Shown here: positions 850-64,000 of the stretch, one piece after another
Numbering within the stretch: position 1 is the first letter of the stretch
How the letters are laid out: each line of letters opens with the position of its first letter
Assembly: GCA_964019415.1 (NCBI GenBank)
Contig: OZ025870.1
Location: forward strand, 9,335,415-9,399,414
Direction of reading: 5' to 3'
From: Ianthella basta
Taxonomy: Eukaryota > Porifera > Demospongiae > Verongiida > Ianthellidae
DNA: 64,000 nucleotides
Program-made: the position numbers and the translations under genes
The notes under the pieces: generated by a model
What the model saw: only the letters and a program-made list of their open reading frames with translations
Databases searched by the model: none
Told to the model about the DNA's origin: nothing

Positions 850-1319
850 TTCTGTTGTTACTATCCTGGACAAAGCTGGCGAAGGAGTGAACTCTTATGA
901 GTATGACCCATTCGGAAGGGTTATTGCAGCATCTGAAAGTGTAAGGAACATCTTCCAATATGTTGGCCAGTTGGGTGTCATAAAGGATGAAGCAGTGGAG
1001 AATGTCTACATGATGAGAGCCAGGCATTATGATGCCACACATGGGAGATTCATGAGCTTTGACCCACTTGGTGTGTACCATTTTTGTGACTTGTTTCGTG
1101 TGTGGCTGATTCTTCAGTACATTATGCTTCTTGTGCATTGTATTCCAGGTTTTGCCGGAATATCTCCAAATTTGTATGTATATGCCAACAATAATCCTCT
1201 AACGGTGAAGGATCCAACTGGCGAATTTGCAGTTATATTGGGTGCTGCTGTTCTCAGGGCAGGATATTCAGCTGCTATATACCTGGTGACTACCCCACCA
1301 TCAGAATACACAGTAGGAG
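850..1319 (+). other. Gene A exons 1-2: RHS/YD-repeat core domain
   Basis: Visible residues include YEYDPFGRV, RARHYDATHGRFMSFDPLG and, across the splice at 1070/1149, NLYVYANNNPLTVKDPTG. This is the conserved RHS-associated core that closes the YD shell in bacterial Rhs proteins and in teneurins. The codon interrupted by the intron is the Gly of DPLG, so the splice restores the motif exactly. The earlier YD repeats must lie upstream of the window. After the final DPTGE the sequence becomes hydrophobic and small-residue rich, as it does after bacterial RHS cores. Confidence 0.88.
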
Positions 1320-4300
1320 GTAAGCCTATAGCAATTGCTTGTGGTATTAGTATTCTACACAGCTCATTGAAAGAGAAAAAATTTGCTAGATACTGTATCC
1401 TCTCTAACAATTTGTCACCCCTAGTGCAGCAAAACTTCGTCTTTTGAGCCAATTAGAGCAGGAATGGAGAAGACTGTCGAAGGTGACGATTATTTAGAGT
1501 TTTCAGACGAAACATTAGAGAGCTTTAAATTTCAGTTATGAGTGTTCCTTGCTGGAATGGCCGCTTTCACATTGAGCGTGCGAACAGCAGTGTGAGTCTA
1601 CCGTCTGAACAAGAAGGATCTGGAGATGATTCGCTGAGCTCCATTGTCGCACCAAAGGGAAAATGAATGACATACACAGCATCGAGAAGCTTATAGACGA
1701 ATGGAACAATGCCAGAAGGACAAAGACAACAGTGCGAGCGTTGTTGGCTTTGTTCCTAGGCTTTGTTCCTTGACCATCGTATCAATATTGCAGACATTTC
1801 TGACGAATATTTAGAATGCTTCCTCTTCATGATGAAAATTAGAGGCAAATGGCGGAAATTAGAGAGACAGAAATCCGTCACAATTAGAGTACACTTGAGC
1901 ATATTTTTCCCTGTCGAAATTTATGACTACTTTTTACAGCAGATACGGTGTATAAAAATGCACTTCATGTTATACTCTGCCTGGTACATATATACTGATG
2001 TAAAAGTGACCTTTAGCTCTCTTGATCCACATGCATCATCTGACTAATATTTAATAGTATGGTGATTGAACAACTATATGGAGTTAAGCATTGGCATGTG
2101 GTCATATATGCCTTGTGTAGACCTGAAAAGTGGTCTGATATTACAATATCAGACCTCGGATTGCACAGCAGGTCTGACTTCAAGAGCACAGTGGAATCTA
2201 CTACTATACAGTGTCAGGCAAAGCAGTCTTACCATTTCACTGTGGCTGTGACAATCTGTGCTACAGGGATCTTCATGCTCCAAGAAAGAAGCCGCGACCG
2301 CAAAAACTGCCCCACGAAAGATAGTCTGTTGGACAAGATACCAAAATAAATACGTAAGTAGACATCTTCTAGGCACCAAACACCGTGTCCGGCTCTGTTG
2401 CACAAAGCAATGGCTTGGAAGATGTGAAGGCATGGTCCGTTGAGCGGCTTCTTCAGATGACAAGGAACAAAATCCATAAAGACATCACTAAAGGCTCCCA
2501 CACGTGGTTAGAATTGCCCTTCTGAATCAAATTCTACATTGAAGACCATCATTCTCCACAAAAGAAGCGTTTCCTAGACCCTCTGTGCAGCACCCTGTCA
2601 CGGCCACAACAAAACTGCGGACTGTGCATTATTTTAAATTCGGTTCTCTGTCATCTCATTGGTCAACGTGCTGCCAAAAGGCGCACAGTATTCTCATTGG
2701 TCAGCCCTAAAGCCTGTTGTAATGTCATGGAGGCACCTACTGAATGCAAATGATGCCATTGCTGGGTTCCAGCAGGAGCAGTGATGTAAGGCAGGCGCTT
2801 ATCAAATGCAAATAGCATTGTTTCGAGAGAGGTCTGTTTTTGATATTGCTTTGGAAAGTTCATTCCGGTTGTGTACTTACCATACAATATACTATATATA
2901 GATCCCATTACCATGGCAATGGGCTTCTTTTTGCGATCTGTAAATCTCGTGGATCCCCCAACTGTACCTTCGCGCCATGACTTCTATTTCGTGTAGCTGG
3001 GCTTTAACTAAGGTGCATCATTCGCAATTCGAAATTTTACAGGAATTTTATAGCAGAGAACTGTAGCTGTTCATTAATACGCCACAACATACGATGTGCA
3101 GGTTGCCCAGCTTACTCGTTTCGTCGAGAAACAGGATATAGCAACTATGAACTGGCTATGAACCAGAGCCGAGAAATGAACTGGTTACGAGCTGGAGGCA
3201 GGCTTTGGTTAACCTCTTAGACACGAATGACAAGTTTACTGGTCATAAATTTGTATACATGTAAGCGTGAATGACGAGTTTACTCGTCAGAGAAATTGGC
3301 ACAGTTTAAGAGCTGTTTTCTTCTGCTACAAACCTTGAAGTGGACTGACTTTCTCAGAGGACCTACAGCAGTGTTTGGACCTTACCTGGCTCGCTTTTCC
3401 TGTCTCCTTGTAGCACCCAACACCTGCAATCAACTGTTAAATTTTGCGCATATTCACCCCCTATCTCCCTAATACCATGTCACATTGTGTACTAGTCTAT
3501 GGAATGGAGGCAAATTGAACAAGAGTCTATATATACTCTCGTTCAAATTGCTACTATGATAGAGGAGAAGTAGGTTATCTCCAAGCTTTACAGCATGCAG
3601 AAACTTGCCGTTCTCGTTGCCTTCCTCCATTTTGTGTTCTTCGTCTGTATGCGCTTGCAAACGTCCTTGATCTGGCAAAAGAGGAGCCCTCAGTATTCTC
3701 GGAGACAGCGTCGAGCTATCCTCACACCATCTTCGCCTTTCTGGCAGTGACAACACCACAAAGTGCGCGCACTTGGCTCAAGTCATTTACTCTTTGTGCG
3801 CCGCCATTTTAACTCCGTGTACTGAGTGCAAGTTCGAGCCTATAACGTTAAAAGACATGTACATGGCAATGGGAAGCACTGCGGCTGACATGTGTCTGAC
3901 AGTGAGTAAGCTTACACTTAGCTGACGCACAGTACAGATAATACAGCCATTTTTTTGGGCACAATCCTAAATACACGTCACAAGCATTATGTCTAATACA
4001 GTGAAAGCACTGATACTAGACTCTTCTACCAGTATACTATTATTGTGACATGACATAGAGTACATGTATCATTAACTCCAATCATGGAGATAGAATAATC
4101 TTTCTTTAGAGTTTTGCCTCAATACCATTGGGCTGAGAAATGGCTTTGTGGTTAACTTCACTACTGGGACTTTGAATGCCATTGCTAAAGAAGTATCTGT
4201 GCATGATCTGTCATAACCTTTTACAGGGATATTCATACACACAGATGGTTCTTAATATATAGTCAGTAAGGTGGAGAAACCAGCAAACACACAAATTAAC

Positions 4301-6476
4301 ACTAGTACTGTTTTTGGTCAGTTACCTTCCAACACTTTCTGCATGGTGATCCCATCCACTGAATGTGATTAACATCTAGTCATATGATGCCACTTGCTAA
4401 TCTGTACACAGGGAAATCAATACCATTTCGTGCTTCTGCTTTATTCAATCCAAATGCAGGAATTGCAGGAAGTGCAGTAAGTGGAGTAGTTACAATACCT
4501 GTTATCGGTGATGCCTTGGGAAGTATCACTGAGGATTTGGTAGACAAAGGATCTGTGGACTGGTATGACGTGGGCGAGGATGCCACTGTGGGAGCAGCTA
4601 TTGGCTCACTTGGAAAAAAGACTGGAAAACTGGAAGGTGGGAATGCATGTTCAAGTTATATAAAGTGGCATTCTTCTCTGTCAACATAATAATTAACAAC
4701 AAACATAAATTTGCATACAAATTTACATAGCCTTGCATACATACAAATTTTCATCTTTACATTTCATCATCGACTTGATAAACTGTACTGCTTTTTCTAA
4801 TAAATTCTCATTTGAAATTCAACTTCTTCTAATTCCATGTTTTAGTGGCCTCTACATTGATCTTGTTATTTTGTTTTGACAATTTGTTGTATGGTTTTGT
4901 GTTGCACTTCCAGTGGAATCAATGTATGTATGTTTATACAATACGTATATTGGGTCCCCCATTCACACCAGCCTTGTGCTGAAGGGGTAACCTTAATACA
5001 ATACAATGCAATACAATACAATACAATACAATACAATACAATACAATACTGTGATAGTATATATCTGTATTTTGGTAGACGCTCATTGCTACTGCTTAGA
5101 TAGGATTGGGCAAATTCTTGAGCAATCATGTAGCAGAGATAAATTGAATGCAAAACATTTCGACTACTGAAGTCTTCATCAAGTACAATACTGAAGAAAG
5201 ATGAGTGATTGGCCTAATATATTTAGACAGCAACCTAGTAATGTCATAAAGGCAGGAATGAGTTGATGAAATGACAGTTCTTCAGTAGTAATGGTAATAA
5301 TGATTAATGAATACTGATAACGGTAATGATTGGTGAGGTGTGTGAGTCATGAAAATGGGAGGGTGAAGGGACAAGGGCTACTAGTACCCCCCGGACCGTA
5401 ACCCTTCCATTATTATATTCGTAAACATGGCGAAGCCGTAACTATTCTTCCTGGTTTGAAGCGCAGGAATGGACTATGTGTTTGAAACTTGGCTAAGGTG
5501 TTCAGTCAATACCACCAGTATGAAAGACGCAAAATACCGAGTTTACTGAAAACATCACTCGGTTGCATGTTTTCTGTAGTGACACTTTATGCATATTGAC
5601 ACGTGACCCCTTTTGTTAAATCTGCTCACAAATTAATGATTTTGCATGTGCACAAAGAATTTTCTGATGCAATTGATCTAGTTGTAGTAGCTAATGACTT
5701 TGTTAGAGCAAATGAAAGAAGGCCACCCTCATTTGCTAAATTATGATTTTGGCTTGAACTTGCACGCAGTTGTGTACTGTTTTAATTGTTGTTTACACTG
5801 ATCATTGTTTTACAGTGTGTTTTGCAGTGCATGGGTCTTCTCCTATTGGCATATTATACATCCACTCAACAGGCTAAGCCTGTAACCAGCAGTTGTAAAG
5901 CTAGTAGCATGGTCTGGACAATCAGAGATGAAAAAAGTTTTTGTTTGCTTTGCTCTCGCATTTTTCTGGCCTAACCACTTCTCTTGGGCTTCCACTACTC
6001 CTGTACTTGGTACCTCAATGTAACTATTGTGTTCTGTCATTCTGTTTAGTTGCTAGGTAGCTAGCCAATTTACTTTGAATGACATTATTTCACAGAATCT
6101 TACTCTGCAGAAAGAACAAATAGGTGTGCAAAGTGCAGAGTGAACTGCTTTCTACCACAGCAAAAACCTGTAGCCGCTTGATGACTGTCGGCATAAAGCA
6201 CTTTTAGCTCTCTATGTACCCTCTTTATGTCTCTCTATTTTTCTCTCTAGTATGTTAGTATGCATGCATGTGTACATTGCGTGTTTGTGTGTGCACATGA
6301 GTGTGTGCGCATGTGTCTGCGTATGTGTGTGTTGCATGTTGTGTGTGTGTGAGAGAGAGAGAGTCTTGAATCCGTTAATGTGCTTTGTTTCACTGTCCAT
6401 TCTGTTAAGTGTAACTGTGTGAGAGAGAGAGAGAGGGAGGGAGAGAGGGAGGGAGGGAGGGAGGGAGGAATGGAGG

Positions 6477-6512
<36 letters not shown>

Positions 6513-9407
6513 GGCGAACTGTGTTTATGGCAATGCTGAAAATGTGCAAGCTGCCTATTTACCACATATGCATGTTAATGTACTGCGCAGCTGTTCGTAT
6601 GTGACTCAAGTTGTGTGTGAGTCTATTTCGCATGTGGGTTATGACACCTATGTAAATAATGTGGCTTCGCGCGGTCAAACCAAGCTGTGCATAAAACTGT
6701 AACTGCATTATAGTACTTCATGTGTGTATAACAATTACTTCAGTGACAATTTCCTAGATGGAGAATCACCGACGACGGCAGTATCTCTGCAAATATACTC
6801 AATCACTGTGTGGCGGCCGATTGAGAGCAGATTAAAGGGCATAGAACAGTACACAGTCACATGATCTAACTTTTTCCTTGTGTCCACAGTTAAAAATGCA
6901 ATCCATTGGAGAGTTACGTTGCTAAAACTGCATTTTTGTCTTCGCGGTTGAAGCTTTTGCACATAATAACTCGCGATTAAAAACTCGTATCAAAAGTGGA
7001 CACATGCAAAATTTAGAAAGCATCTTTACATTATGACTTCTACTTTCATTGTCAAGCTGTTCTGAGGTCCCATACGGCAATTTACTAATGAAACCAATTT
7101 TGCCTCCTCCAACAGCCAGAGTCACATGACTCTGTCTCAGTGGGTAGGCGTACCCAAACGTCACAGAAATGGTGGCCATGGAATGCCTAATTTACTGTGA
7201 TGCTTTGCGCCGCACATGGCCTACTTCGTCTTACATACATATGCAAAAAGACTCCTGCTTACCTGCTCCAGTATCGAAGTTGTCTCTGCCTCCTCGTCTT
7301 GTCCCAGATGTGACATTCCTTGATTACTGCATGACACAATTAATTGTTGGGGCCCTGGCTGGGGCCCACATACATCACACAGTGTCACATGAGTAACTAA
7401 GGTAACGTAGAAGAATGTGCTGAAACCACACAGTCCAAGCTTGTGTAAACTATGCTGCCATAACCCACATGTGTCATGTCCGCTTCAGTCATTTGTGTTC
7501 ATTTTTATGGAGATTGTGTGATAGTGTGATAATTATTTGAACCGTTTGCAAAAGCTACTATTGATAACGCAGCAGTGACCAAAGGGATCAATTATTCAAC
7601 TTGGGGCAGCAGCATCACTAGCTATTTTACTCAAAATTCTTGTTTCATTATTATAATGAATATTATGTATAGTACTGACAAGTGATTTCACAATCACCGA
7701 CTTGATGATAGTCAAACAGAATAACAGTAACCAGAACTAGCTTTGGATTGCAATGGCTCAGACAGGTGTTAAAAGAGAGGTGCTTGTGTGATACTGTCAT
7801 CCTTTTTGATACTGGTATATTTCAGTACTTTGGTGACCATAGTGAATGTCTTAGCATGTGCATATAGATTTGAATGATTCTATTAATGCAATCATTATAG
7901 CCAGATCAATCTAAGTTAATCAAACTTTTCGAAACCATAATAGCTGACTTCATCAGTGAATAATCATACTTACAAGCAAGGGTAATAAACTTCCATTTTA
8001 ATGATTGCTTTCAGAAGTGTAAATGCACCTAGCCATTGCATTGTTAATCTCTTTGATGAAGCTTTATTCTGTCTCTATTGCTTCCTATACAGGGAAAGTG
8101 GGAAAGAAAGCAAAGGGAGCTATGCCGAAATCCAGGACTGGACCCCTTCGCAGATATTATGAACATGTGAAGAGGAAAAGCAACGAATATGTAAAATCAT
8201 TTAAATCTAAAATATCTGAAGACTTTTACCCAGATGCAGTGTCAACTATGGCTAAAGGTAAAATTCGTATGAATGTTGAAAACATTGTTAATGATACTTT
8301 TGGAGAGGACATTGAAAAAGCAAAGGAGAAGGTGACGGAAATTATTGATCAGACCTTTATAAGGTCACAAGATCCAGTAAGTGCCAAGCATTAAATTGCA
8401 CATAACTTTGCACCTTTAACCCTATAGGCTCGAACTTTAAACTTCGTGCCATGCACTCAGTTCGCAAAGTTACAATGGCAGCGCACAGAGACTAAATGAC
8501 TTGAGCCCAGTGCGCATACTTTGTGGCGTTGTCACTGCCAGAAAGGCGAAGATGATGTGAAGATTGTTCACCCTGTCTCCGAGAATACCAAGGGCTCCTC
8601 TTTTGCCAGTTCGAGAACGTTTGCAAGCGCGTATGGACAAAGAACACAAAATGGAGGAAAACGACGAGAACGATGAGTTTCCGCATGCTGTAAAGCTTAG
8701 AGCTTACTTATTTCCTCTCTGCCATGGTAGCAATTTGAAGGAGAGTCTATAGACTCTCGTTGAAATTGCCTCTGTTCCATAGACTAGTACACAATGTGAT
8801 ATTGGTATTATGGAGAACTCGGGCGAATACGCATAAACTTCAACAGTTGATTGCAGGCGTCGGGCGCTACAAGGAGACAGGAAAAGCAAGCCAGGTATGC
8901 TCCAACCACTGCTGTAGGTCCTCTGAGAAAGGCAGTCTGCTTCAAGATTTGTAGCAATAGAAAACAGGTCTTAAACTGTGCCAATTTCTATGACGCGTAA
9001 ACTCGTCATTCGTGCTTACATGCATACAAATTTATGACCAGTAAACTCGTCATTAGCGCCTAAACGGTTAAAGCATAGTTTGATTCTACTGTCTCTGATT
9101 AATGTAGAACACTATTTGCTCACACCACTCTTTAACCTATACTCAATATGCAATACGCAATAACACTGTCACCTGCAACTTGATACATAGCATCTGCATG
9201 GCTAATGTACTTCTGCATGTAATAATATTAAGTGTAGATATTTCATACTTGAACATTAGTGTATAGCTCTTTGAACATGTGTTTGTGTTGCTCATTTATA
9301 GCATGATGATCTCATGCGTCAAAGCACCACCTGACGCAGGGATTTTTGGGGCGCCGAAGGCGCCCCTATATTGTTTTCACTTTTAGGTATTCGTATGGCC
9401 TCATGTT

Positions 9408-9444
<37 letters not shown>

Positions 9445-12400
9445 CTGTCATTGCAAGTGGCGGCGCTCAAGTCGTTCTTTACAAAGCTTTAAATCCTCTC
9501 TATTGACGTTTTGCCGTGTTTGAATCGGACGAAATGTGGTCATAAACATGTGTTAATAGAGTAATACTAATAAAAAGCCTAAGGAACGTCTCTTCTGCGA
9601 GATACAGCTCCAATTATCACTGAAGGACATTGTAAAATGGCCGCGCGCTCGACGCTTTCTGTTTGCTAGGCTCAAAATCATCTTTCTTTAGATTTCGCCG
9701 TGTACCCAAGGAACGAAAAGCGTTTCTAGAACATGTTTAAGTAATAGTATTGTAGTAGGAAGCTTGCTTAACTGTTTTCCTGCGAGGTACAGCCCTAAAT
9801 ACAACAGAAGTCTAGTGACCCGTAGGCCAATAATGGGAGACCAGCGAATCATGACACATAATTATAGCCATGATTCGTTCATAGAGTCATCATAGGGTAG
9901 CCTTTCAGCCAGCACACTCCTCCTCCAGGCACAAAGTAACAATTGCTCATTCAGAATGTCATATAGATCAAAAAGCAGTAGGTAAACATTTGACAGTTTG
10001 GTAGGGGTGCTTTCACTGGATATGACTGGCTGCTCTGGAGACTTGAAACTCTTGCAAACCCAACGGTCTAGTGTGTCTTGATGTATCTTTCAGACCAACA
10101 ACAATACTGTACCCCCAACTATCTGATTTACTGAATGTACATGGGAAAATTGCTAGCAAGTAGTTCGCGGTTCAGGGGCGCCCTGGCGCCCCACGAATTT
10201 TTTAACTCGAAATACTTGTTGCATTGCAGGGGTCGGTCTGCAGTAGCCTGTTAAGTGCCAGTAGCACTTCATTATTACCTGTTAAGCACCCCTAACACCT
10301 CATTGTTACCTCAGTGTGTAAACTAATACCTAACAAAGAGGGCAAGAGAGTCAAATATGCAGCAGACTACACTAGCAAAAGTAACGGCATAAACAGCATG
10401 GATACAATGATGCCCCTAACATTAAAAATGAACAAAAATTCATGAAGATGAGTCGTGTCTACAAACTGAGTCATCCAAGTTCTAAACTTGTAGTCAAATC
10501 AGTCAGTTCGTGAATGTGCACCCTTGAAAGATTGGAATGTAAAGAGGCTGCGTTTTGAAGTGCAAATGTTTGCTGATTTGGCAAAGGTGCAGGTCATGGT
10601 CAACAAAAATCTCAAAATCGAGATCATAGTCAAAATCCAAACGCTCTGGAGGAGGAAGGTTGTTGGGCGTCAAACAGGTGGCATGCTTGCTGGAAGGAAG
10701 GTTGTTCTCCTGGTTGCTAGTGGAGTTACACATGACCATAGGCTGAATCACAGCTATGCTGTAGTACCAGACTGCTAGCTAAAACTCCCAGAGCAACTAA
10801 CTTTCCCACGCAAACGAAGTGGATCCATTATTTTGCGATAAGCCAGTTACTACACGACTTCAGTGTAGTACGGCAAATTTTATTGCACTCACCCTTGGGT
10901 GCTTCGCACCCTCCAGCCTCATGCATTTAATTGCATACTTCATCGAAGGCATGTAGTGTTACTACTTACTGCCACACGCACACACACACACCATCCATGC
11001 TCTGCTTTCACTTTCCAGTGGTGCAGGCCACATCCAGAAAGAACATATTTACTGGGGTGGTGGGAGAGAATGCTGGTGGGATCACTCCCTCCACCCTGAA
11101 CACTTGGCTTGGCGAGTAGGGTTTCGTCTACAGAACTTCATGTGATTCTTAAGGCCTTGCTTCTTGTATTGACCATCACAGTGTGGGCAGGTCAGGGTCT
11201 TCAGGGCAGATTGCCTGTGTTTCTGTCTCTGGTGGTTAACAAGTCCGGCCTTGTTTTGGGCCTGGAAGGTGCAGCCACTCTCTTTACATTGTAGATCAGC
11301 GTGTGCTTCAAATAACTCTCTTTCCCTCCTTTGCTTGCGTTCATCCTTTTTTCTCTTCTCCACTTCTTCTGATTCCCTGTTCAGGTCCTCTACCATTTTG
11401 TCAACAACAGCTGTCCAACCACAACAGCGGTCTTGTGCAATCTCCCTCCAATCCTTGTCAACTTTGCATCCCTTCAGGTCTTTGCTCACAACATCTGCCC
11501 ACCTCAGTTTCTGCCCCCCAGCTGTCCGCTTGCCACCCTCTGGCTTGCACACTAATAGTTGTCTAGGTATGCGCTCTGTGCCCATCCTTGCAACGTGACC
11601 CAGCCATCTTAACCTCCTCCTCCTCAACATCGACTCAACAGTTTCCATGTTTGCCTCAGTTCTGATCACTGTGTTCCTCTTCTGCTGTCTTACTGATAAC
11701 CCTAAGATGATTCTCAGGCACCTCATCACAAAACTTTGCAGCCTTTTCACCTGATGGGCCAGAGGGGCCCATGCCTCACTGCCATACATTAAAGTTGGTA
11801 TAATTGCAGCCTTGAACATCCTCATCTTTGTTTCAGTCTTGATCTTCTTTTGGTACCAAAGGACTCTGCTCAGGCTCCTGAAACTACTTGATGCCTTTCT
11901 GATTCGTGCGCTAACCTCCTTATCTAGCCCGCAGTCTGAGGCAACGGTACTTCCTAAGTACTCGAACTCCTCCACTACATCCACTGTGTTATCTGTCCTC
12001 TGAAGCTGCACTTGCCTAGGTTGTTCTTGCTGCTGACCAGCCTGTGGTGTGGGAAGCACTGCCATGATCTTAGTCTTTCTTGCACTAATGGTGAGGCCCA
12101 TCTCACTACAGCTTTCATCCATGTCCATTAACATTTCCTCCAGTTTGTCCATGGAGTCACTAACCAGGCACATGTCATCCGCGTAGTCCAGATCAGGGAT
12201 TTGTGTTCGATGGTGCATCAGCTTCCTGCACCCTACCAGGTCAGCTGCTGGATTGAAGAGGACTGTTAACCCGTTTGCCGGATGCTTCCTCAAGGCCATG
12301 CATATGACTGAGTCAAGGAACAGGTTGAATAATGTTGGAGCAAGTACGTCTCCTTGTCGGACTCCATTGGCAATTGGAAATTCCCCAGACACCCTCCCAT

Positions 12401-15400
12401 AGGCTCGTACAGCACCTGTAGTTCCTTGGTGGAGTGCTTCTAAGATACGTACCACCTTTGTTGGAAAGTGGTACCTCTTCTGGAGTACTGACCACAGAGC
12501 CTTGCGGTTTACAGAGTCATAAGCTTTCTTTAGGTCCACAAAACACATGTAGAGAGGTGCATGGAACTCCCGTGCCTTTTCCATCAAGGTACGCAAGGAG
12601 AAAAGATGGTCTGTGCAACCCCTGCCTTTTCGAAACCCACACTGGTTCTCTCTAAGTGCTCGGTTTGCTTTCTCCTTCAATCTGTTTTGGATGACTCGAC
12701 AGAAGACCTTTCCTGGTACACTAAGTAGAGCTAGCCTCTGAAATTGTCACATACATCATACGCTCCCTTCTTGTGCAGTGGGACAACAATTTGCTTCAAC
12801 CAATCATCTGGGACTTTCTCCGAGTGCCAAACTCTACAAGACAAACAAGTCAACCAGTGGACAACGGGCTCTCCTCCTAGCTTCAACATTTCTGCTGTAA
12901 TCTCATCTACTCCTGACCAGAAGCATATCTTTTTGGGGACATCACACACCACCTCCTGCAACTCAGCATAGAATTTTTCAGCCTCTTCCTCATTTCCTTC
13001 CTCATTCGTTGGAGCATACACTGCCACAACAGACACAAAACCACTGTGCATCTTAAGCCTTGTTCGCAAGAGCCTCTCTGATACTGGGTGAAACTCTGCC
13101 TTTGCTGCCCTCCATGCCACAGGGGCGTTCGCACTCAACACTACTGCTACTCCTTTCCTACAGTTTTGCACTTCATGTTCTGGCATCCCTGAGTACATAG
13201 TTGTTGTGCCATTAAGTTGCAAAATCCCATGACCTGGCCACCTTACTTCTGACAGAGCCAATACTTCAATTCTCTTCTCTTCCATTGTTCGTAGCACATC
13301 TCTGAGTTTTCCATTCTGCCTTGTTGGTTTGCCAAGTGTTCTCACATTCCAGCACCCAATTCGAGTGCTAGACTTTGGTGAAAAGAAGGTCTGATCCGGC
13401 TGCATCAGTGCAATAGGGTCCTTTCAGCTTTGCCTACTACACGTCATAGGATCTGCATTCTGCAGTGGGCGCCTTCCCATCCCTCCTTTTCGAAGAAAAC
13501 GCTCATTCTTTGTGGTTTTAGGGATCATTTGGTTTGAGGATCTGCAGGGTGATCAGCCCTGCGAGTCCTGCTGACGTTTAGCCATCCTTGATGTTACCAG
13601 GGCCACCACGTGGAGGAGTCAGCATCAGCCCCCCCCCCCACACACACACGCTAACACACATGTATGCGCGCACACACACACACAAACACACACACAGCAC
13701 ACATACTGAGTGAGAGAGCGGGGGTAGACACGGAGCGTTAGCTAGCAAGGTCTTTTGTAGCTGAATGGAGGAACATTTTGGCGCATGTTACCTGCCCATA
13801 GTGTATAATTCAACCTGCCCATAATTTCAATTCCTCTAGGAGTGCTAACCTTTGCACACTTTTGGTGCTATGATTTCCTGAAGTGTGCTGCACTGTTCTG
13901 CTGTCTCAACGAACTCCACGAGGGTAGCTGGTTTCCCAACATGCGCACTATCAAGCTTTTTGGTTGAAAACCAAGCCAATTCACTCAAGGAACCTCATTG
14001 CGGTGGTATATTGCAATGAACAAAGAGTTCAAAGTCTGGTTTAACATTTAAAAGTACTACACACTAGAGGAAGCTTAAATGTAGTAAGTCGATAGCAATT
14101 CATCTCAGAGCACCGCCATTTTAAAATGCCCGTCACTCGGTCTTCATGATAGTTGGAGCTATATCTCACAGGAGAGTCATTCATTTGGCTTCTTGCTACT
14201 ATGACCGTATGACATACCTATGTCCTAATTTTGTTTGATAAGTAGATGGCAAATGCGGACATAGATGATTGCGAGCCTTGTAAAGCATAGAATTTGAGCG
14301 CCAAACGGCCTCTTGAATTGCCCGTAGTATTCATACATACATAGTTCATTACGAACATTAAGCCATACAAATACCTAAAAGTGAAAACAATATAGGGGTG
14401 CCTTCGGCGCCTCAAAAACTAACACACATGTCAAAAAGCAAAATTGATCATTTTAAACTATTATGTCATTAACGCACATTGCTACATAGCCTTAAAATTT
14501 CCAACAGATCGATGAGCTGATAAAGTAAAAACAAGACATCATTTAGTTTGCAGTTTACTGTCCATACATATTCAACTTTGTTGAATGTTGAATAAGCTTG
14601 CAAGCACGTCTGTTTGATATGATACTGTCAATTATTGCTACCCAATTGTGGTATCTCGTCATAACATTGTTGTAGAAAGGTTGACATGTTACCTTTCCCA
14701 TATGCATGCTATAGACATGAGAACAATACACTGAAACTATTCAACTGCAAATTTTCAAAAGCTACTTACAGACCGGGTGTAATAACTGCTTAGCACATTG
14801 AAATAAAGTGATTTTGGTATGGAAAGGAAAGTGTTCCCGACCAGACTACAGGCATGATTAGCATGCAAGTCTGAATAGATTTTCAGTGGCACTCTCATAT
14901 GGGTTGGAAAGCTTCTGTGAACTGTATATTTTGAATTACAATATTAATTTGTTTTCTGATGTCTTGCTGTTCATTACACTTAGTTTTTGTTCAATTCATT
15001 CCTCTCTAGAATGACATTATCGGGCCCTCAGGCTATGGAGATGCACGATTCATACCAGCTAACCTTGTCCTTGAGTACAAGATTAGGTTTGAGAATGACC
15101 CCAATGCCACAGCTCCAGCTCAAAGGGTTTTCATCAGTCACCGTCTAGATGACGATGTGGATGTGCGGACATTCAGAGTTGGATCATTTGGGTTTGGAGA
15201 ATTTACACAGAATGTTACGCTCCAAAGAGCCTTCATACAAGTAAACACCACCAATTTGATTGTGAAGTTGTTTCTTCATATCTGCTTTGTATTCTGTTAT
15301 ATTGTATCTGTTCCTCCTTAGGATGTTATTAATATGACAGAGTCCCTCGGTATATTAGTAAGGGTGAGAGCTGGCATTGATGTGATCAGCAGTGAAGCAT

Positions 15401-18400
15401 TCTGGGATATGCAGTCCATTGACCCAGAGACAGGTAGGAATGTGAAAACTGGTCTCTTAGGAATATAATCAACATCCATCATTTGATGTAGCTAATCTTG
15501 ATAAGATATATTTTTAATTATTGCAAAAGCAATAAGGCATTTTGGGACATCTCTGGGATGTGCTTGTAAAAATTGTTTCCTTTAACCTATTGGATGGATG
15601 ATATCACATTATTATAATAGTTTCAAATCAAACATTTGCCACTTTCATCAGCAAACATTAGCATGAATAATAATAATAATAATAATAATTGATCTTATTT
15701 AATGTGGGGAACCTTTAGCCAGAAGGCTACTCTTCCAGGCACCCACAACACATACATAGTGCAAACAACACAGACACACATATACAGTAAGATCATTTTG
15801 TTATTCATTCAATGAGGCTGTTTGTTGTCAGGTGGGTGCTGCCACTGAAAATTTCTCTGCCATGGCCTGGGCTTGAGCTTGAACTGGAAACATCCCATAA
15901 TCATGGATCTTGAAGCATGTGCTTCAGCTCCAGACCACCCGCACCCCCAAGCATGGTATTAAGAACACTATTTCAAGCATCATCTAAGTTAACATAGGTC
16001 ATTGTTGTATTTCTCTACAGTACAAACAATTACCACTGTCCCTGCTTAGACAGCACTACTGTGATGTTTAATAGTAATAAATTGAAAGATTCTAAATCCG
16101 AACACACTTAATTTGCATATTATTGACCTTACCACCTGTAAGGAGAGGCACCCATTGACCCAACTGTGGGATTCCTTCCTCCAAACAATGGTACAACTGG
16201 ACAGGGCTTTGTTACCTTCACTGTGAGAGCCAAACAACAGCTTGGACCCCTTCCTACTATTGATGCTGTGGCTTCCATCACCTTCGACCAGAATGAGCCC
16301 ATTGTCACCCCTCCCATCTTCAACACTGTGAGTGGTTCTACTAAGGGATACAAGAGGAGCCTAGATGCACGAACTACCTGCTTACACGTGTTTGTAGTCA
16401 TGTACATTAAATAAGCATGAAATTTAGACTGATGTTATAATGTGACAGAAACATAAAAACCTATGCATGCATTGATGTATGCACTATGGAATAATCATTA
16501 AAGTAGCTTCATATTGTTTTAAACAGATTGACGATATTGCTCCCGCGGTTAATGTCACTGCAATCCAAGACCTGCTAAGTGTTGGAACTCCAGCTGTCAG
16601 TTTGAGTAAATCTGATGTTGGATCAGGAGTAGCCACTGTGGATCTGTACTTACTGGAAGGTTAGATATACATAGCATTAGTGTAATTCTAAGTGTTCCAT
16701 TCATTGCAGTATTGCCAATTGGCTAGTGATGCTGCTCCTTCAGTTTCTTCCAAACCTTGGTTTCATTTATAGACGACCAGTTGAGACCTCTGCTTCTAGG
16801 GAGAGCAGAACAGACAGCCATACTTCCCCTATTGCAAGGCTTTCAGTATCAAGTAGTAGCAAGAGCTATAGACAATGTTGGCAATATGCAGACTCTGGAG
16901 GATGCCTTGCAGAACGTTTTACCATTGAATTTCACTACAATTCCCATCACCTGCCCAAATGACTGCTCTGGCCAAGGCAATTGTTCCTCAATTGGTACTT
17001 GTCAGTGTCAGACTGGTTTCTATGGTTCTGACTGTAGTCAAGGTAAAGGTCACTGGCATGCATAACATGTCTATGTCATATGTTACGTGAGATTACTGTA
17101 TAAAATTATGATACTGGATGTGAGGCATGCAATGTAGTGTGTATATAATTATGTGCACTTTGCAATGCATAATAACACTCTCAAGGCAGCAATATACTTA
17201 TAGTAGTAATTGTATACAAAATGTAGCTATTTTAATCAGACATTTTAGTATATTCTGCCTTCAAATCAAATTATACTTTACTACTTACAGTTACACCTCC
17301 ACTGGAGCCACCCTTTCTGAACTTCACCTCTCCCTCAACCACTGGACAAGAAGATAATCCAGTAACTGTGTATGTCTTTGCTACTCCTGTAAGAGACACA
17401 ACAGGTGCAGACGAGCTGGTCATCAGTATTTCTGGTTTGCCAGCTGCAGCAATTCTTAGCAATGGAATGCGCTTAGGAGAGGGACTTTGGAAACTTATTC
17501 CAGAGGACTTTGGAAACCTTGAAATTTTGCTTCCTACACATTTTTCAGGACTGTTAGAGATTCAGGCAACTGCCTACTTTGAGAACCATCAGAACACAAC
17601 TTCTAGGTCAAGAGGTATACTGTTTACCATTGAGCCTGTGCCTGATGCTCCATATCTTGTGGTGGTAGATACTTGCTACAATGCCTCACGAAGCACTGTG
17701 GACATTTTTGTGGAAAGCAGACTTGTAGACATGAATGGTTTGGAAGAGCTAAGCCTTGTTGTGCATGGGCTTCCTGAAAATGTTAGTCTAGTTGAAGGTA
17801 ACAGAAGCTCAAATGGAGAGTACATAATCACTATGCTTCAAATGTTCCAGCTTCGTGTACCAGATAGATTCCAACCATTCACTTTTGAAGTCAACGCCTA
17901 TTCAACCATAACTGCTCCAATGATGCAGACCAATGTTACCGAGGAGGTGACAGTTGAAGAATGTAAAGTCATTGAAGGTAACAATTGAAGTGGAACACTG
18001 TCATGATCTTGCCTCAGCATTCAATCCACAAACATGCAGTTCAGATCTTTTCCAGTGCAAACGTCCTTAGATGCTGTAGAGTACACGTTTTGTCTGAATA
18101 TACATTGTTAACACAGTGTCACAATATCACACAATGTTAATATGCAAGATTTAGTATATATTCTTTGGCCAGGGTGGTTCCATGTTGCATTAGCTAAATA
18201 ATGTTCAAGAATCTGATTCTGCTTTTAATTTTCAAGATCAAGTCATTGTGCTTCCATAGCTCAACCTGTACTCATATCACAAGCTTACGCACATTAGTGT
18301 ATTAAAGTGGCTCAATCTATAATCTTCTTTTCTTTCTTTCGCAATATAAACACTCAGGGGTGTGTCCACGATCAGTTGAACAGAATGAAGCACTGGACTT

Positions 18401-20992
18401 CAATTTCTACTGGCCAAACACAAATGCTGGAAACATTTTCGCTATTCAGTGCCCCTGCAGGGACCTCTATGAACTGACTGAAGACCTGTTTGCCATCAGG
18501 GAGTGTGGAACAGATGGAAGCTGGCTGAAAACTGAACTCTCCACTTGTGTATCCAGTAAAAGAGTGGTGCTGTGTGAGGTATATACATCTCTAATGTGAA
18601 TTTGCAGTGTTATAGCTGCAGTAACATTGTAATGTGTGGCTGTGTACATGCCGCACTCTTGATGGCGAACATACACATGCATACATGGATAACTCTTGTC
18701 AATTTCTCATTTGTGCAGGGTGGAGATCTGGCAGGCACCCTGTTTGACAGCCTGGGATTGCCTGACACTTTGACATCTGGAGATGTAGCCATTCTGTTCA
18801 GTGCAGCAAGCACTCTCCTCACAACTGAAAACATCAATAACAACACCGTGAGCTGTAAACCTGCTCTTCTTAGCTCATTATATGAGCACAAAATGTGCAT
18901 CAAGCATAGAAAATTCTTCTAGGAATTACTATGCTGCAAGTGTATCTTACTCTACATAATCCAATGCTTTGCCTTTCCTACAATGCTAGGTGAGAAATAT
19001 GCTGCTGAATGCATTTGATGACCTGCTATCTACCGATGATGATGTTCTACTGGCCTTAAGTGAAACGACAAGCATTGGAGAAAAGTATGACATTGTATTA
19101 TAATTCAATGCATTCTGTGATATGTATTCGTATGACTGTAGAGCACCCTTCAGCATACATGTAAGTCACAATCAGCAAATTTAAAATTCATTCTCATTAT
19201 AGTAATGGGGTTATTCTTGAGCAATCATGTATAGTTCTTGTGTGCTCTTGCTGTACAGGCTTTTGTCATCATTCGATATGATTGGGAAAGTTCGTGGTCT
19301 CAGTCTAGGGGAAACCTTCATGGTCAATAGAACACAATTTGCTCTAGAATATGTTGAAGTCAGCTCAGATGATCTTCCAGATGCAGGATACAACGTTAAG
19401 TTTGGTGGGGAAGATGGCGATCAAGTGAACCTGCCAAAGTCTGTATTCAATGGCTATTCTGACAACGTACGCATTAGCAGCTCAAAGCTAAAGAAGACAT
19501 CTTTGTTCAGAGGACGGGAGGAGTCCATCACATTTGCCAGCAACATATTATCAGCCAATGTGCTTGAAAAGGAGGTCAAGGACCTGGCAGAACCTGTCAC
19601 AATAAAGTTTGAAAAGATCACCGTTGTAAGCAGTTTGCATAGAACAGCTTAAAGCATGCATTTCAATCTATAATATTTTCTGTGTAGTGAAGAAATTTGT
19701 TCTTCTTTGGTGTTGCCATGCAGACGCCAAGTGGAATGTTAAGTAGCTGCCACTTCCTGAATACAAGTGCCAGCCGTAAGTTTTTGATTGTTTATACATT
19801 AAACTATAACAAGTATCATCTGAAGCAGTTAATGGGGTGGAAGGAGTATAGTTCCCATTGTTCACTAGATTCCTTATTCATGCTTGACTGTTATGTAAAT
19901 ATCTACTCCTCTTTACACCAAATTTCCAGGAGTTACAGGCAAATGGTCCCAGGATGGATGCAGATTGTTGCAAGAAACACAGAAAGAAGTGACATGTGCA
20001 TGTGATCACCTGTCAAGTTTTGCAGTTCTACTGGTTAGTTAATTATTACCAAATGACTCCTTATTTATCTGCTATAAGGGAGAATTTGCTGCTCCCACTC
20101 CTGGCCTTCCTCCCCTTCATGCAGACTGCAGCAGATTCCACCAAACCTCCACCCATTGGTACCATCTCTACAGCATCCATTGTGCTGCCCATAATTTTGG
20201 GTCTCTTTCCCATCACCGTTACAGTTATTGTAGTAGCGGTGTTCATTCACAAGTAAGTATATTGGAATAGAATGATGTCCCACTAGCATAGTATAGCCTT
20301 GCATTAGCACTACAAAGCATAATGACATGCTAGTGTGTATAGTATATATGCATATACATGTGTACAAGCTTCAACAGTTCTACATGCTAGCTGTTATGTA
20401 CTTAACCTGACACATCCAAGCCTATTTAATATGTGGAAAAGAGCCTGACAACATTATTGCCAGCAATCACGGTGTCCAGGTTGCAGCCCACAGTGCAGTC
20501 CAATCACATTGCAGATATACTCTAACAACATAACAATGCTTGTGGCAACCAATGGCATTATGCAACATCAGCATTTGTGAGAAACTTGCGAGTTTACCAG
20601 GTGATCTGCAATCTCATTGGTTGTCATGAGCCGGGTTATGACATCGGTACATGTCTGGAATTGCATGGGTTGCGGTGTGGACTACAACCTGCACAACTTC
20701 ATGTATAGCAATGTGCCTGGCATATTTTCCCCATTTAAAACGGCACGTGGCTAGCTGTTATGTTCCATCCATTGTGATTGGTTTTCAGTTTATAGGTGTT
20801 ACCTCATAATGTAGGGGCGAGAAAAGTAAGAAGCAGTACACAGTAGGTACTGTTGATGCAACCTACTCCAAGCAGCTGCCAGAGAAGGTTATAGAGAATG
20901 TTGGTCGCCATGAAGAGAGCAATGAATTGGAAATAGAGACCTCTTTCACTGAGTCGTCTGCGGCCATGGAACATGTGCAGATACATCTGTAG
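850..20992 (+). CDS. Gene A: giant RHS / EGF / HormR-GAIN-GPS single-pass membrane protein (5' truncated)
   Basis: Eighteen exons on one strand splice in frame: 850-1070, 1149-1319, 4412-4636, 8093-8376, 15010-15240, 15322-15433, 16143-16327, 16527-16659, 16773-17042, 17291-17977, 18358-18578, 18719-18847, 18990-19084, 19259-19625, 19724-19775, 19930-20033, 20125-20252, 20815-20992 (TAG). They sum to 1263 residues after one leading base. Donors are mostly GTAAGT or GTGAGT-like; the one after 4636 (GTGGGA) is weak. Domains in order by visible residue: RHS core 1-115, spacer 120-205, basic linker 206-300, DPNDIIGP module 301-580, EGF 581-608, two cadherin-like repeats 611-835, HormR 840-905, GAIN 914-1127, GPS 1111-1162, TM about 1179-1203, tail to 1263. 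The likely role is cell-surface adhesion or signalling (inference). The 3' block from 15010 is secure; the link to the RHS exons across long introns rests on phase agreement and on the S-x-DPNDIIGP motif created at the 8376/15010 junction. Confidence 0.72.
2059..2897. mobile_element. MITE family R2, copy 1
   Basis: An approximately 840-bp block that recurs at about 54907-55745. It starts TATGGTGATTG and ends near CTTACCATACAATAT, so the tips (TATGGT/ACCATA) are a short inverted pair. An internal hairpin GGTCTGATATT/AATATCAGACC is shared by both copies. No coding capacity is recognised. It lies in the intron 1320-4411 of gene A; the stretch 1320-2058 before it shows nothing I can name. Confidence 0.6.
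2898..3905 (+). mobile_element. Non-autonomous Crypton-like element, copy interrupted by a MITE
   Basis: It begins ATAGATCCCATTACCATGG, matching the start of the element at 24901 (ATAGATCCCATTGCCATGG). It also shares CACAACATACRATG, AACCAGAGCCGAGAAA and CAGTGAGTAAGCTTAC with that element. A piggyBac-like MITE (3209-3851) splits it, and similarity resumes at about 3852. The right end is decayed. Confidence 0.5.
3209..3851 (-). mobile_element. piggyBac-like MITE, copy 1 (TTAA-flanked)
   Basis: Bounded by TTAA at 3209-3212 and 3848-3851, with tips TTAACCTCTTAG and, inverted, TTAACGTTATAGGCTCG. It is the reverse orientation of the copies at 8416-9071 and 58958-59618. Repeated GACGAGTTTACTCGTCA units lie next to one end. 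Short ORFs inside show no known domain. Confidence 0.65.
4991..5048. repeat. (ATACA)n pentanucleotide microsatellite
   Basis: About ten near-perfect ATACA units in the intron 4637-8092 of gene A. Confidence 0.9.
5391..5517. repeat. Dispersed repeat, copy 1
   Basis: Contains TAACTATTCTTCCTGGTTTG followed by AAGCGCAGGAA and an AAACTTGGC segment. The same order of blocks is found at 48697-48820. No termini could be defined. The rest of the intron 4637-8092 (for example 5518-6200 and 6700-8092) shows no recognisable gene or element. Confidence 0.5.
6346..6509. repeat. (GA)n/(GGGA)n purine-strand microsatellite
   Basis: GAGAGA at 6349-6364, then a mixed GAGA and GGGA tract at 6421-6508. Translated frames are low-complexity only. 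Confidence 0.9.
8416..9071 (+). mobile_element. piggyBac-like MITE, copy 2 (TTAA-flanked)
   Basis: A 656-bp element bounded by TTAA at 8416-8419 and 9068-9071. Tips are TTAACCCTATAGGCTCG and (inverted) TTAACCGTTTAGGCGCT, an imperfect terminal inverted repeat. Near the right end the motif TAAACTCGTCATT occurs twice, spaced by about 45 bases. piggyBac transposases target TTAA and duplicate it, hence the assignment; no transposase is encoded. It lies 40 bases after the exon ending at 8376. Confidence 0.7.
9345..9655 (+). repeat. Left arm of a long inverted repeat with hairpin tip
   Basis: Starts with the perfect hairpin GGGGCGCC-GAA-GGCGCCCC and then CTATATTGTTTTCACTTTTAG. Its diverged inverted counterpart is 14105-14418. 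An (AT)n run sits at about 9413-9441. Shared later blocks include GAGATACAGCTCCAATTATCA-type and AAAATGGC sequences. Confidence 0.55.
10151..10222. repeat. small palindromic MITE (CAAGTATTT family), copy 2
   Basis: Left arm GCAAGTAGTTCGCGGTT, centre GGGGCGCC-CT-GGCGCCCC, right arm AACTCGAAATACTTG. It is the same family as 535-597. The surrounding 9656-10849 has no gene that I recognise. Confidence 0.6.
10850..10970. repeat. Foldback element with CACCC...GGGTG loop
   Basis: Imperfect arms around AGTTACTACACGACTTC and GTAGTGTTACTAC fold around CACCCTTGGGTGCTTCGCACCC. This is the same design (AT-rich arms, GC-rich TTCG/CGC core) as the palindromes at 33498, 54731 and 55742. Confidence 0.45.
11082..12680 (-). 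pseudogene. LINE reverse transcriptase with C-terminal C2H2 zinc fingers
   Basis: A 532-residue open frame with RT motif A (FVDLKKAYDSVNR), motif B (NGVRQGDVLAPTLFNLFLD) and motif C (LDYADDM), so the catalytic aspartates are present. Downstream comes FEYLGSTV, the thumb-like KTKMRMFKAAIIPTLMYGSE region and RLRWLGHVARM. The C-terminus adds two Cys2His2-like fingers (C-x4-C...H-x4-H and C-x2-C...H-x3-C/H type), which could bind nucleic acid. The true RT frame extends upstream of this Met: similarity (LLSVPGKVFCRVIQNRL) continues to the frameshift near 12731. This domain is open but disconnected from a full endonuclease. Confidence 0.85.
12731..13405 (-). pseudogene. LINE endonuclease (APE type), internally deleted
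   Basis: Starts MQPDQTFFSPKSSTRIGCWN, with RIGCWNVRTLG and LALSEVRWPGHG (the Asn and Glu catalytic regions), and YAPTNE. After DVPKKICFW it jumps to GVDEITAEMLKLGGE, which belongs to the RT linker. The GDFNA and SDH-type catalytic segments that should intervene are therefore missing. The frame ends at DNFRG-stop, where a one-base loss separates it from the RT frame. Confidence 0.8.
13643..13700. repeat. (CA)n tract
   Basis: CACACA repeats next to the C-run that marks the 5' end of the LINE on the opposite strand. From 13701 to 14104 I see no gene. Confidence 0.8.
14105..14418 (-). repeat. Right arm of the long inverted repeat
   Basis: Its reverse complement begins TGAGGCGCCGAAGGCACCCC, then TATATTGTTTTCACTTTTAG, matching the left arm at 9345 with the hairpin tip slightly decayed. 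The two arms enclose about 4.4 kb that contains the LINE. From 14419 to 15009 I see no further gene. Confidence 0.55.
15010..16892 (+). other. Gene A exons 5-9: DPNDIIGP module (prokaryote-like extracellular domain)
   Basis: The module opens with NDIIGPSGYGDARFIPAN, continues IRFENDPNATAPAQRV, RTFRVGSFGFGEF and GFLPPNNGTTGQGFVTFTVR, then DQNEPIVTP and SGVATVDLYLL, and ends ARAIDNVGN. I recognise this series from very large cell-surface proteins of bacteria, where it follows RHS or CARDB repeats. It is split across five exons with typical donors and acceptors, so it is a resident eukaryotic gene and not contamination. Its function is unknown; it looks like a beta-sandwich set with a terminal Ig-like or FnIII-like unit. 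Confidence 0.7.
15670..15948 (-). mobile_element. tRNA-derived SINE, copy 1
   Basis: Read on the minus strand it has a tRNA-like head (GGTGGTCTGGAGCTGAAGC, TCAAGATCCATGATTATGGG, a B-box-like AGTTCAAGCTC), a unique body (CCTTCTGGCTAAAGGTTCCC) and an (ATT)n tail. The copy at 35330-35598 is in the opposite orientation with the same head, body and tail. The anticodon-arm region CTCAAGATCC of copy 2 resembles tRNA-Leu. It lies in an intron of gene A. Confidence 0.65.
16953..17042 (+). other. Gene A: single EGF-like domain
   Basis: Six cysteines in the spacing C-x3-C-x5-C-x5-C-x-C-x8-C, with the GFYGSDC ending typical of EGF_2/teneurin-type EGF domains. It is encoded at the end of exon 16773-17042, directly after the ARAIDNVGN end of the preceding module. 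Confidence 0.85.
17291..17977 (+). other. Gene A exon 10: two cadherin-like repeats of bacterial type
   Basis: The 229-residue exon has QEDNPVTVYVFA, then ELVISISGLPAAAILSNG, WKLIPEDFGNLEILLPTHFSG and EIQATAYFEN. The pattern (acidic Asp-rich start, LSISGLPxGAxLSNG, W-x-L, FSG) is that of tandem cadherin-like or VCBS-like repeats in bacterial adhesins. A second, more diverged repeat follows (ELSLVVHGLPENVSLVEG, then a FQPFTFEVNAYS ending). The exon carries several N-glycosylation sequons. Confidence 0.6.
18358..18578 (+). other. Gene A exon 11: hormone-receptor-like (HormR/HRM) domain
   Basis: Residues show FYWPNTNAGNIFAIQCPC, then FAIRECGTDGSWLKTELSTC. The WP-x-T-x-AG, CPC, RxCxxxGxW and terminal Cys pattern is that of the HRM domain, which precedes the GAIN domain in many adhesion GPCRs, including latrophilins. 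I ended the exon at the GAG/GTATAT donor (18578) and not at the nearer GTAAAA, because only the former keeps the frame into the GAIN exons. Confidence 0.75.
18719..20033 (+). other. Gene A exons 12-16: GAIN domain with GPS autoproteolysis motif
   Basis: The exons give helical subdomain A (LFSAASTLLTTENINNNT, NAFDDLLSTDDDVLLAL), then strands (FMVNRTQFALEYVEV, NVRISSSKL, FASNILSANVL, PVTIKFEKI). The GPS motif follows, with Cys in SSCHFLN, the KWSQDGC segment, and CACDHLSSFAVLL. HL/S is a cleavable GPS tripeptide; the cut would fall between visible residues 1155 and 1156. All four GPS cysteines and the Trp are present. GAIN-GPS is normally followed by seven TM helices (adhesion GPCRs) or the polycystin bundle. 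Confidence 0.88.
20125..20992 (+). other. Gene A exons 17-18: single TM helix and short cytoplasmic tail
   Basis: Exon 20125-20252 encodes a Pro-rich stalk (STKPPPIGT) and one hydrophobic run of about 25 residues ending VVAVFIHK. The last exon (20815-20992) encodes a hydrophilic tail with a basic stop-transfer start (KGEKSKKQY), acidic patches (EESNELEIE) and a TAG stop. No further hydrophobic segment exists, so the protein is type I single pass. A possible polyadenylation signal AATAAA is at 21143-21148. Confidence 0.82.
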
Positions 20993-24760: not shown

Positions 24761-27942
<3,182 letters not shown>

Positions 27943-29130
27943 CTGGTGTGTAAATAGTGTTCGCTCTAGATGCTTGTATATTTTCCTGTAGAATTAAGGC
28001 TTACAATGGCTAGTTTCTATCTAGCAAGGTTAGCAATAGTACTAGAGTTGCTAAATAGTGACCCATTTGGGTCAGGTGTGTTGTAGAGATCCAGAGTGTG
28101 CTCTTGTACGTACTTGAACACATTTATAATGATATAATTATCGTTTGAAGCAAGACTGATGTAGCCATTAAAGCATGCGCGAAATGTCCAATTGACCTCA
28201 CCTCTTTTGGTATAGCGTGTTCCTTGAAATGCTATATGCTGTGTATGTGCCATTCTGATGCATGACCGTATACATATACTAATCTCTCTGCTCGTGCTAT
28301 TGTTTATTTGAGATCTAGCTTCCTTTAAGTTTACAGCAAAGTGTCTGCTAATGAAAAATATATTGTGATACAATACACACTTGAAACCCATCATAAAGTC
28401 ATGACCCCCTTTTGTTATTATCTATTGCTCATGACCTGCCTCATCACACATAAGCATATTATACAATGCATACTTTACCTCTCTTCCTCTTCTGTACTTT
28501 TCAGCTCAAACTGACAATATCTAAACTTTCACTGAAGCTAGTATAGTAGTCTCATACCCAGCCTCACATGTACCCATGAAAATAGTGTGGTGCGATCGAG
28601 AACTACCCCCAACCTAATGCTATGATATTCCCAATGTCACCTCTATCCGAAGAGATCTAGCTAGATTAACTTAGGCAGTGACGGCGTGAAATCAAATGTG
28701 AAACTCCTATATCTGACCTGATGACATCTCTAGTGACTATGGGAACAGCAGCAGATAATTGAAATTACATTCCTAAAGAGATAACACACAGTCAATAGGG
28801 CTGAAGTAGGCCCGTGGTTGGGCGTGGAGGCTGGGGTGTGGGGAGCGAGGGGATGGGATATTACGAAGGTATTGAAGGGAAGGGAAAGAGTGCTGAGTGA
28901 GAGGATACACACCACATGCTGCATACCAAGACACACGCACACACACTCACACACTCGTGGACAGAACATTCTTTATTAATTGATGCTATAAATAACGGGG
29001 AAAATTCAAATGGATCGAGCCATTGAAATGCAGTGTTTGCCTTTACATGTTGTGGGACACATGGTACAAATAGTATAGCTGTTTATGAGCCATTCCACAT
29101 GGACAATTGTGTTACATGTAATAATATATA

Positions 29131-38748: not shown

Positions 38749-38834
<86 letters not shown>

Positions 38835-46856: not shown

Positions 46857-46921
<65 letters not shown>

Positions 46922-63945: not shown

Positions 63946-64000
63946 GTAAGTTTGTAGGTTAATGTGCCAGAATATGACGCTAAAAATTATTTGAATTAGA

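Follow-up and report, generated by a model that had tools for sequence, protein, structure and literature searches.

A locus of the sponge Ianthella basta raises the question of whether a single gene can hold both the ligand and the receptor of a known cell-surface pair. In a first-pass annotation, exons for an RHS/YD core and exons for a hormone receptor domain (HormR, or HRM), an EGF domain, a GAIN domain and a GPS were joined in one chain. This was read as a teneurin-type ligand module and a latrophilin-type receptor module in one protein, possibly an early or independent arrangement of the pair. The stretch of DNA analysed here (the window; 64,000 nucleotides) corresponds to C3:9335415-9399414 of a 209-Mb assembly, where C3 is contig OZ025870.1.

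The 18 exons of the window, all on the forward strand, splice in one frame to a protein of 1263 residues with a single terminal stop, with AG acceptors at all 18 exons and GT donors at the first 17. They form the 3′ part of a longer gene model of 44 exons and 4416 residues (C3:9288729-9356406, 67.7 kb), which starts ∼46.7 kb upstream of the window and in which 26 further in-phase exons were chained from open frames conserved in paralogous regions. A first exon encoding a signal peptide was not found. Since the program used to choose splice sites favoured phase agreement, phase alone is weak evidence for the model. Support independent of phase comes from two paralogous copies on C3, termed A and C (the window copy being U), in which the splice dinucleotides are kept at exactly homologous places. 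Across the whole model, and counting testable exons only (those with a usable paralog match), AG is present for 29 of 31 acceptors in copy A and 33 of 34 in copy C, and GT for 31 of 33 and 35 of 36 donors, respectively. Moreover, the join of position 8376 to position 15010, across a 6.6-kb intron, restores the motif DPNDIIGP, which is found in three of five bacterial proteins, namely those of our alignment A2; two Nostoc proteins outside that alignment have PNTLINP or NTLINP at this site. The run of 18 in-frame exons to one stop is thereby confirmed and, as far as genomic sequence can tell, the RHS core and the HormR-GAIN-GPS block very likely belong to one chain.

The RHS-associated core (TIGR03696, E = 3.3e-17, residues 18-98 of the 1263-residue protein) lies at 850-1319, as had been annotated, but is divided between two exons. 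Its first half is encoded by exon 27 (850-1070), the first exon of the original chain, which shows 84% and 89% identity in copies A and C, and its end (NLYVYANNNPL..DPTG) by exon 28 (1149-1319), as judged from the spliced translation, the TIGR03696 match and structure matches. The linker that follows occupies exon 29 (4412-4636; 63% and 72% identity where copies A and C could be matched) and exon 30 (8093-8376; 34% identity in copy C, unmatched in copy A), the latter ending in the DP of DPNDIIGP. No Pfam family and no toxin domain was matched in this linker; a single weak PADLOC match (E = 0.017) was taken as chance. The 6.6-kb intron that separates exons 30 and 31 contains, outside the protein, a reverse-strand retrotransposon (11082-13423) with reverse transcriptase and endonuclease ORFs, which we take to be of LINE type. 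Exons 31, 32 and 33 (15010-15240, 15322-15433 and 16143-16327) encode the first part, middle and end of DUF7619 (PF24595, E = 5.9e-15), a domain left unnamed in the first-pass annotation. All three exons align with bacterial sequences; exon 32 was also placed by paralog comparison, and exon 33 (GFLPPN..NEPI..FNT) is 93% identical in both copies. Exon 34 (16527-16659) encodes a bacterial-type Ig-like domain, and exon 35 (16773-17042) the end of that domain and one EGF domain, for which EGF models gave values of 2.2e-4 to 1.1e-3, all below their cut-offs. Exon 36 (17291-17977) contains Ig/cadherin-like repeats by eye, with no Pfam match and a single-sequence structure model (pLDDT 33) that was uninformative as to fold. 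Exons 35 and 36 both end in phase 1, exon 36 being phase 1-1, which fits exon shuffling.

The remaining exons encode the receptor-like tail. The hormone receptor domain in exon 37 (18358-18578; 67% identity in copy A) was recovered by PF02793 at E = 2.3e-5 and 25.1 bits, just below the Pfam cut-off of 26.2, and the HRM domains of both related genes tested scored above it (29.3 and 33.7 bits). The GAIN domain begins in exon 38 (18719-18847; 76% identity in copy A), continues in exon 39 (18990-19084; a 60% identical stretch in a related gene on contig C23) and has its subdomain B in exon 40 (19259-19625; 53% identity to a C23 gene). The Pfam GAIN model gave no match to the 1263-residue protein at E up to 10, and a single-sequence structure model of exon 40 was uninformative (pLDDT 37), but among solved structures the GAIN-B/GPS stretch matched ADGRL3 (6.9e-10), and a three-row profile of it matched ADGRG2 (1.1e-15) and ADGRL3 (2.8e-14). 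The GPS (PF01825, E = 7.9e-12) starts in exon 41 (19724-19775) and is completed in exon 42 (19930-20033); it reads HL|S in the spliced protein, which we take to be of the cleavable type, with cleavage predicted at HL|SSF between 20012 and 20013. Exon 43 (20125-20252) encodes a transmembrane helix, the sole strong one in the model, with a hydropathy of 2.9 against 1.96 for the next highest, and exon 44 (20815-20992) a short cytoplasmic tail and the stop.

In the full model, a weak Ig/HYR-like N-terminal stretch and six CARDB stretches precede the RHS repeats, core and linker; DUF7619, Ig, EGF, Ig-like, HormR, GAIN, GPS, one transmembrane (TM) helix and the short tail then follow in order. Pfam searches of the upstream part (residues 1-3253) identified CARDB (1.7e-47, six stretches) and RHS repeats (PF05593, 5.8e-27, six stretches), together with Big_13, HYR_4C and DUF6531, all below their cut-offs.

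From CARDB to the Ig domain after DUF7619, this order is that of a bacterial family. A tblastn search against plasmids matched 424 records, mostly through one part, and the match extends over RHS core and DUF7619 alike at the three best places (one in Gloeothece, two in Nostoc). Among five proteins analysed locally, Gloeothece RS38360, Nostoc C052 and Nostoc HK-01 have RHS and DUF7619, two of these with CARDB as well; Gloeothece RS32910 and the Terrarubrum protein have CARDB, a pre-RHS match and DUF7619, without RHS. In local blastp searches, whose E-values derive from this five-protein set, sponge residues 1392-3266 aligned with Gloeothece 7-1821 (28.6% over 1939 columns, 2e-174) and residues 3447-3737, which include exon 34, with Gloeothece 1954-2251 (42.6% over 298 columns, 1e-58); Nostoc HK-01 aligned in order at 876-1956, 2180-3251 and 3454-3726. 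From the CARDB array to the Ig domain after DUF7619, the sponge protein is collinear with single cyanobacterial polypeptides, and CARDB, RHS core and DUF7619 stand in the bacterial family's order in one sponge chain. Planctomycetes, Verrucomicrobia and other groups also have related ORFs. A scan across GTDB genomes yielded at least 80 loci, 79 of them with a DUF7619 match; the same ORF carried CARDB in at least 32 of the 79, RHS in at least nine and both in at least four, these counts being lower bounds because locus flanks were of 10 kb or less. No match to the sponge tail segment was found in the same ORF at any of the 79 loci. In Candidatus Paraprochloron terpiosi LD05, CARDB, pre-RHS and DUF7619 matches share one ORF, without an RHS match; the name of this cyanobacterium presumably points to the sponge Terpios. 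In an unrooted tree of 15 rows the three sponge copies grouped together (100/100) on a branch of length 1.9 that drew a long-branch warning; four of the 12 inner branches were well supported, nine of the 15 rows deviated in composition, and no donor is named. Passages of PMC6425310 describe bacterial teneurin-like proteins that can carry upstream CARDB repeats, so that the CARDB-RHS neighbourhood as such is already known in bacteria.

How, then, does the RHS part relate to teneurins? RHS/YD repeats and an RHS-associated core are present, but no Pfam model for the teneurin TTR, FN-plug, NHL, YD-shell or Tox-GHH domains was matched (residues 1-3253 at E ≤ 0.1, the last 1263 residues at E ≤ 10). 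Nor does the model show type II topology, as the sole strong TM helix lies near the C-terminus, after the GPS (the extreme N-terminus is missing from the model). When the whole RHS region was compared with solved structures, Rhs proteins matched best (8h8a, 1.6e-35); entries further down included a ‘Teneurin-like protein’ (9pt5, 1.2e-22) and SGS4 (1.7e-9), and metazoan teneurins were absent at E ≤ 1. For the RHS core alone, 9pt5 came first (1.8e-10), SGS4 and SGS1 gave 4.4e-9 and 2.4e-8, and Teneurin-4, at E = 0.054, was not significant. The structure table gives molecules, not species; we take the Rhs and 9pt5 entries to be bacterial. On domain content and sequence ranking together a teneurin origin is rejected, and the description of the RHS part as teneurin-like gives way to collinearity with the cyanobacterial CARDB-RHS-DUF7619 proteins.

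The receptor end was examined in the same manner. It shares HormR and GAIN-GPS with latrophilins (ADGRL), but Pfam searches of the 4416-residue model matched neither a lectin (RBL) nor an olfactomedin domain, and 7tm_2 was not matched in the window protein. With one strong TM helix in place of seven, an adhesion GPCR identity is rejected, and because the GAIN-B/GPS stretch matches several solved adhesion GPCRs (ADGRG2 and ADGRL3), it is not specifically latrophilin-like. Passages of PMC12716839 treat HormR-GAIN-7TM as a holozoan module and HRM as largely holozoan, in keeping with the genome being that of an animal or a near relative of animals, and those of PMC6978801 state that latrophilin binds teneurin via its lectin domain. 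The genome itself contains at least 101 HRM-GAIN matches (99 of 239 candidates scored). Among the closest is a gene at C23:932407-935186, 55% identical from HRM to TM over pieced-together parts and single-TM by eye; another, at C6:5615-5619 kb, is 39% identical over pieced-together parts and has one TM helix. Both loci have EGF-like stretches upstream of HRM, and neither was matched in the genome search for RHS cores. Among the 7tm_2 matches listed (150 of 427 candidates scored) none lies on C23 or at C6:5.6-5.9 Mb, and a single one, at 4770968, on C3. The likeness to these two genes, the single TM helix and the lack of a listed 7tm_2 match beside them place the tail with a single-TM receptor family of the sponge's own genome rather than with latrophilin. 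Elsewhere in the genome, C12:4.78-5.04 Mb holds a dense array of at least 33 7tm_2 matches, of which at least 30 run almost full length within a single open frame, which makes the 7TM part there apparently intronless.

The proposal of teneurin ligand and latrophilin receptor modules in one protein is consequently not supported: the RHS part belongs to another bacterial family, and neither a lectin nor a 7TM match is present. Of the two suggested arrangements, independence from teneurins stands and an early form of the pair does not. Given the other bacterial family, the missing lectin match and the one TM helix, the gene looks like a separate capture and fusion.

Three copies of the gene lie on C3. 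The RHS-core search of the genome found these three places only (five of five candidates scored; an intron-split core could escape). Copy A extends from before C3:9.100 to ∼9.144 Mb, and copy C from window position 57082 to ∼C3:9422175, its 5′ part lying within the window (57082-64000, forward strand) as judged by paralog comparison. No stops were found in the matched stretches of copies A and C. Between U and A, dN/dS is 0.25 for CARDB and RHS (2619 codons), 0.16 for a stretch of 366 codons, 0.21 for exons 37-38 (114) and 0.21 for the N-terminal part (450); between U and C it is 0.23, 0.28, 0.28 and 0.22 for stretches of 2618, 452, 224 and 607 codons. These values of 0.16-0.28 would show that the gene family is kept under selection. 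Exon 36 is present in copy C and was not found in copy A, where the HRM exon follows the EGF exon by ∼1 kb, in phase and with frame-keeping AGs. After its first GAIN exon, where the GAIN-GPS-TM exons are expected, copy A is interrupted by ∼5 kb of N (C3:9144415 to ∼9149400). In copy C, exon 36 is followed by an fn3 exon with a stop (E = 1.5e-5, 25.5 bits against a cut-off of 25), and no matches to exons 37-44 were found up to C3:9439414. Copy C is thus predicted to be a secreted version of the U ectodomain, its fn3 end in place of the anchor being counted as module swapping. The interval between the window's gene and copy C contains other coding sequence. Three similar coding stretches in tandem (26089-28000, 38471-40409 and 46410-47878), one of which looks perhaps broken, carry an HSMGG lipase-like motif and are presumably LCAT-like; a 370-residue ORF on the reverse strand (43833-44942), possibly of a mobile element, resembles what we take to be a tyrosine recombinase; and overlapping ORFs at 52960-53801 resemble what we take to be a fragment of a RecQ-like helicase and a zinc-finger protein.

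Four other explanations of the locus were weighed. The chain could represent two neighbours, a bacterial-type RHS gene that stops no later than exon 36 and, downstream of it, a HormR-GAIN-GPS-TM gene of its own. As copy C shows, an end shortly after exon 36 is possible for an RHS gene, and the related HRM-GAIN genes elsewhere have no RHS core match. However, exon 36 and the HRM exon lie only 380 bases apart and have compatible phases, the HRM neighbour recurs in phase in copy A without exon 36, and the EGF-like stretches upstream of HRM on C23 and C6 suggest that HRM is probably internal there too and not a first exon; two genes are distinctly improbable. It is also unlikely that copy U has recently become a pseudogene within a working family, with its own fusion protein not made at full length. 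This reading draws on one in-frame stop in exon 26 of copy U (C3:9331965-9332068, upstream of the window), at a position where copies A and C have a sense codon. Yet no second internal stop occurs in the 4416-residue model, despite dS values of 0.66-1.15 between copies, an alternative GT donor inside exon 26 could splice round it in phase, and frame and splice sites are intact in the tail exons. The stop may reflect a variant, an error or incipient decay.

A teneurin, divergent or early, joined to an ectodomain of latrophilin type would account for the RHS core and repeats, for an EGF domain whose best scores, although below cut-off, were to teneurin EGF models, and for 9pt5 as the top solved match of the core alone. 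It is opposed by the collinear bacterial match, by the silence of every teneurin-specific model, TEN_YD-shell included, by the non-significant metazoan teneurin, by the opposite topology with a C-terminal anchor and by the want of lectin, olfactomedin and 7TM matches, and we regard it as very improbable indeed. The largely bacterial character of the protein might point to an assembly chimera or bacterial contamination, but on a contig of 13.4 Mb, with 43 introns in the model and three diverged copies with conserved splice sites, this is scarcely credible.

The locus is therefore best explained as one gene, probably encoding a giant type I single-pass cell-surface protein, in which a bacterial block would have arrived by horizontal transfer, gained introns and been joined to an animal tail. 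The CARDB-to-Ig block would derive from a bacterium with a protein of the CARDB-RHS-DUF7619 type. The bacterial tail (presumably RTX-like in Gloeothece, by eye) would have been lost and its place taken by EGF and by an animal module of HormR, GAIN, GPS and a single TM helix, a cassette of the genome's own receptor family that may have been added by shuffling at phase-1 introns. The protein would be secreted and its GAIN domain would cut itself at HL|S, leaving an ectodomain of ∼4300 residues non-covalently held on a membrane stub. Displayed in this way, the bacterial-type adhesive ectodomain could bind partners on neighbouring cells, in the matrix or among microbes, and could be pulled off or shed by force or binding; copy C, without an anchor, would act outside the cell. 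Two candidate aspartates of the RHS core (YD..GRF..DP) align with those of bacterial cores, and we presume that they have a role in RHS-core self-cleavage. A tentative and rather doubtful extension is that two self-cleaving elements in series, the RHS core and the GAIN-GPS, display the captured shell and let it go on binding or pull, and that this protein, with its secreted paralog, could serve microbe or self recognition in an animal without neurons.

No description of an RHS-GAIN fusion was found among the titles, abstract openings and passages of the literature covered (subscription journals and preprints lie outside this scope), and the main text of PMC4784904, on prokaryotic genes in Amphimedon, has no mention of RHS, CARDB, YD repeat, teneurin, adhesin or GPS. 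In passages of the surveys, teneurins go back to a transfer of bacterial RHS in the line of animals and choanoflagellates and are lacking in sponges (PMC6428715, PMC6297184, PMC6425310, PMC13018210); work on polymorphic toxins derives them from a single bacterial transfer (PMC3482391). The sponge gene suggests more than one capture of bacterial RHS proteins by animals for use at the cell surface. If correct, it would stand for an additional and independent capture, with another bacterial family as its source and with opposite topology, anchored by the GAIN-GPS device of adhesion receptors. The repeated recruitment of RHS shells as animal surface recognition proteins thereby becomes testable, and the gene points to GAIN-GPS without 7TM as a release anchor.

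The sponge protein can be compared with several known systems. With the bacterial giants WP_245602873.1 (Gloeothece verrucosa PCC 7822), BBD63171.1 (Nostoc sp. HK-01) and locus L102 (Anabaena sp. 4-3) it shares the order CARDB array, pre-RHS, RHS repeats and core, linker, DUF7619 and Ig, whereas these are intronless and have no matched EGF, HormR, GAIN, GPS or TM part. Like the adhesion GPCRs (ADGRG2, ADGRG3, ADGRL3 and others) it has HormR directly before GAIN-GPS, with a sequence match in GAIN-B/GPS, but one TM helix instead of seven. The C23 and C6 genes of the same genome have the same succession of HormR, GAIN, GPS, one TM helix and tail, with EGF-like stretches upstream in place of an RHS core match. 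The mosquito salivary gland surface proteins SGS1 and SGS4, compared by description, are likewise giant animal proteins with a captured RHS/YD shell, but passages of PMC9935623 describe a Tc-like shell with propellers, carbohydrate-binding and lectin domains. Teneurins, which occur in bilaterians and some choanoflagellates, likewise consist of an RHS shell that a eukaryote took over from bacteria and combined with EGF and one TM helix (passages of PMC6425310 and PMC6297184); the sponge protein differs from them in its bacterial source family, in matching no NHL, TTR, FN-plug or Tox-GHH model, and in being predicted as type I where teneurins are type II.
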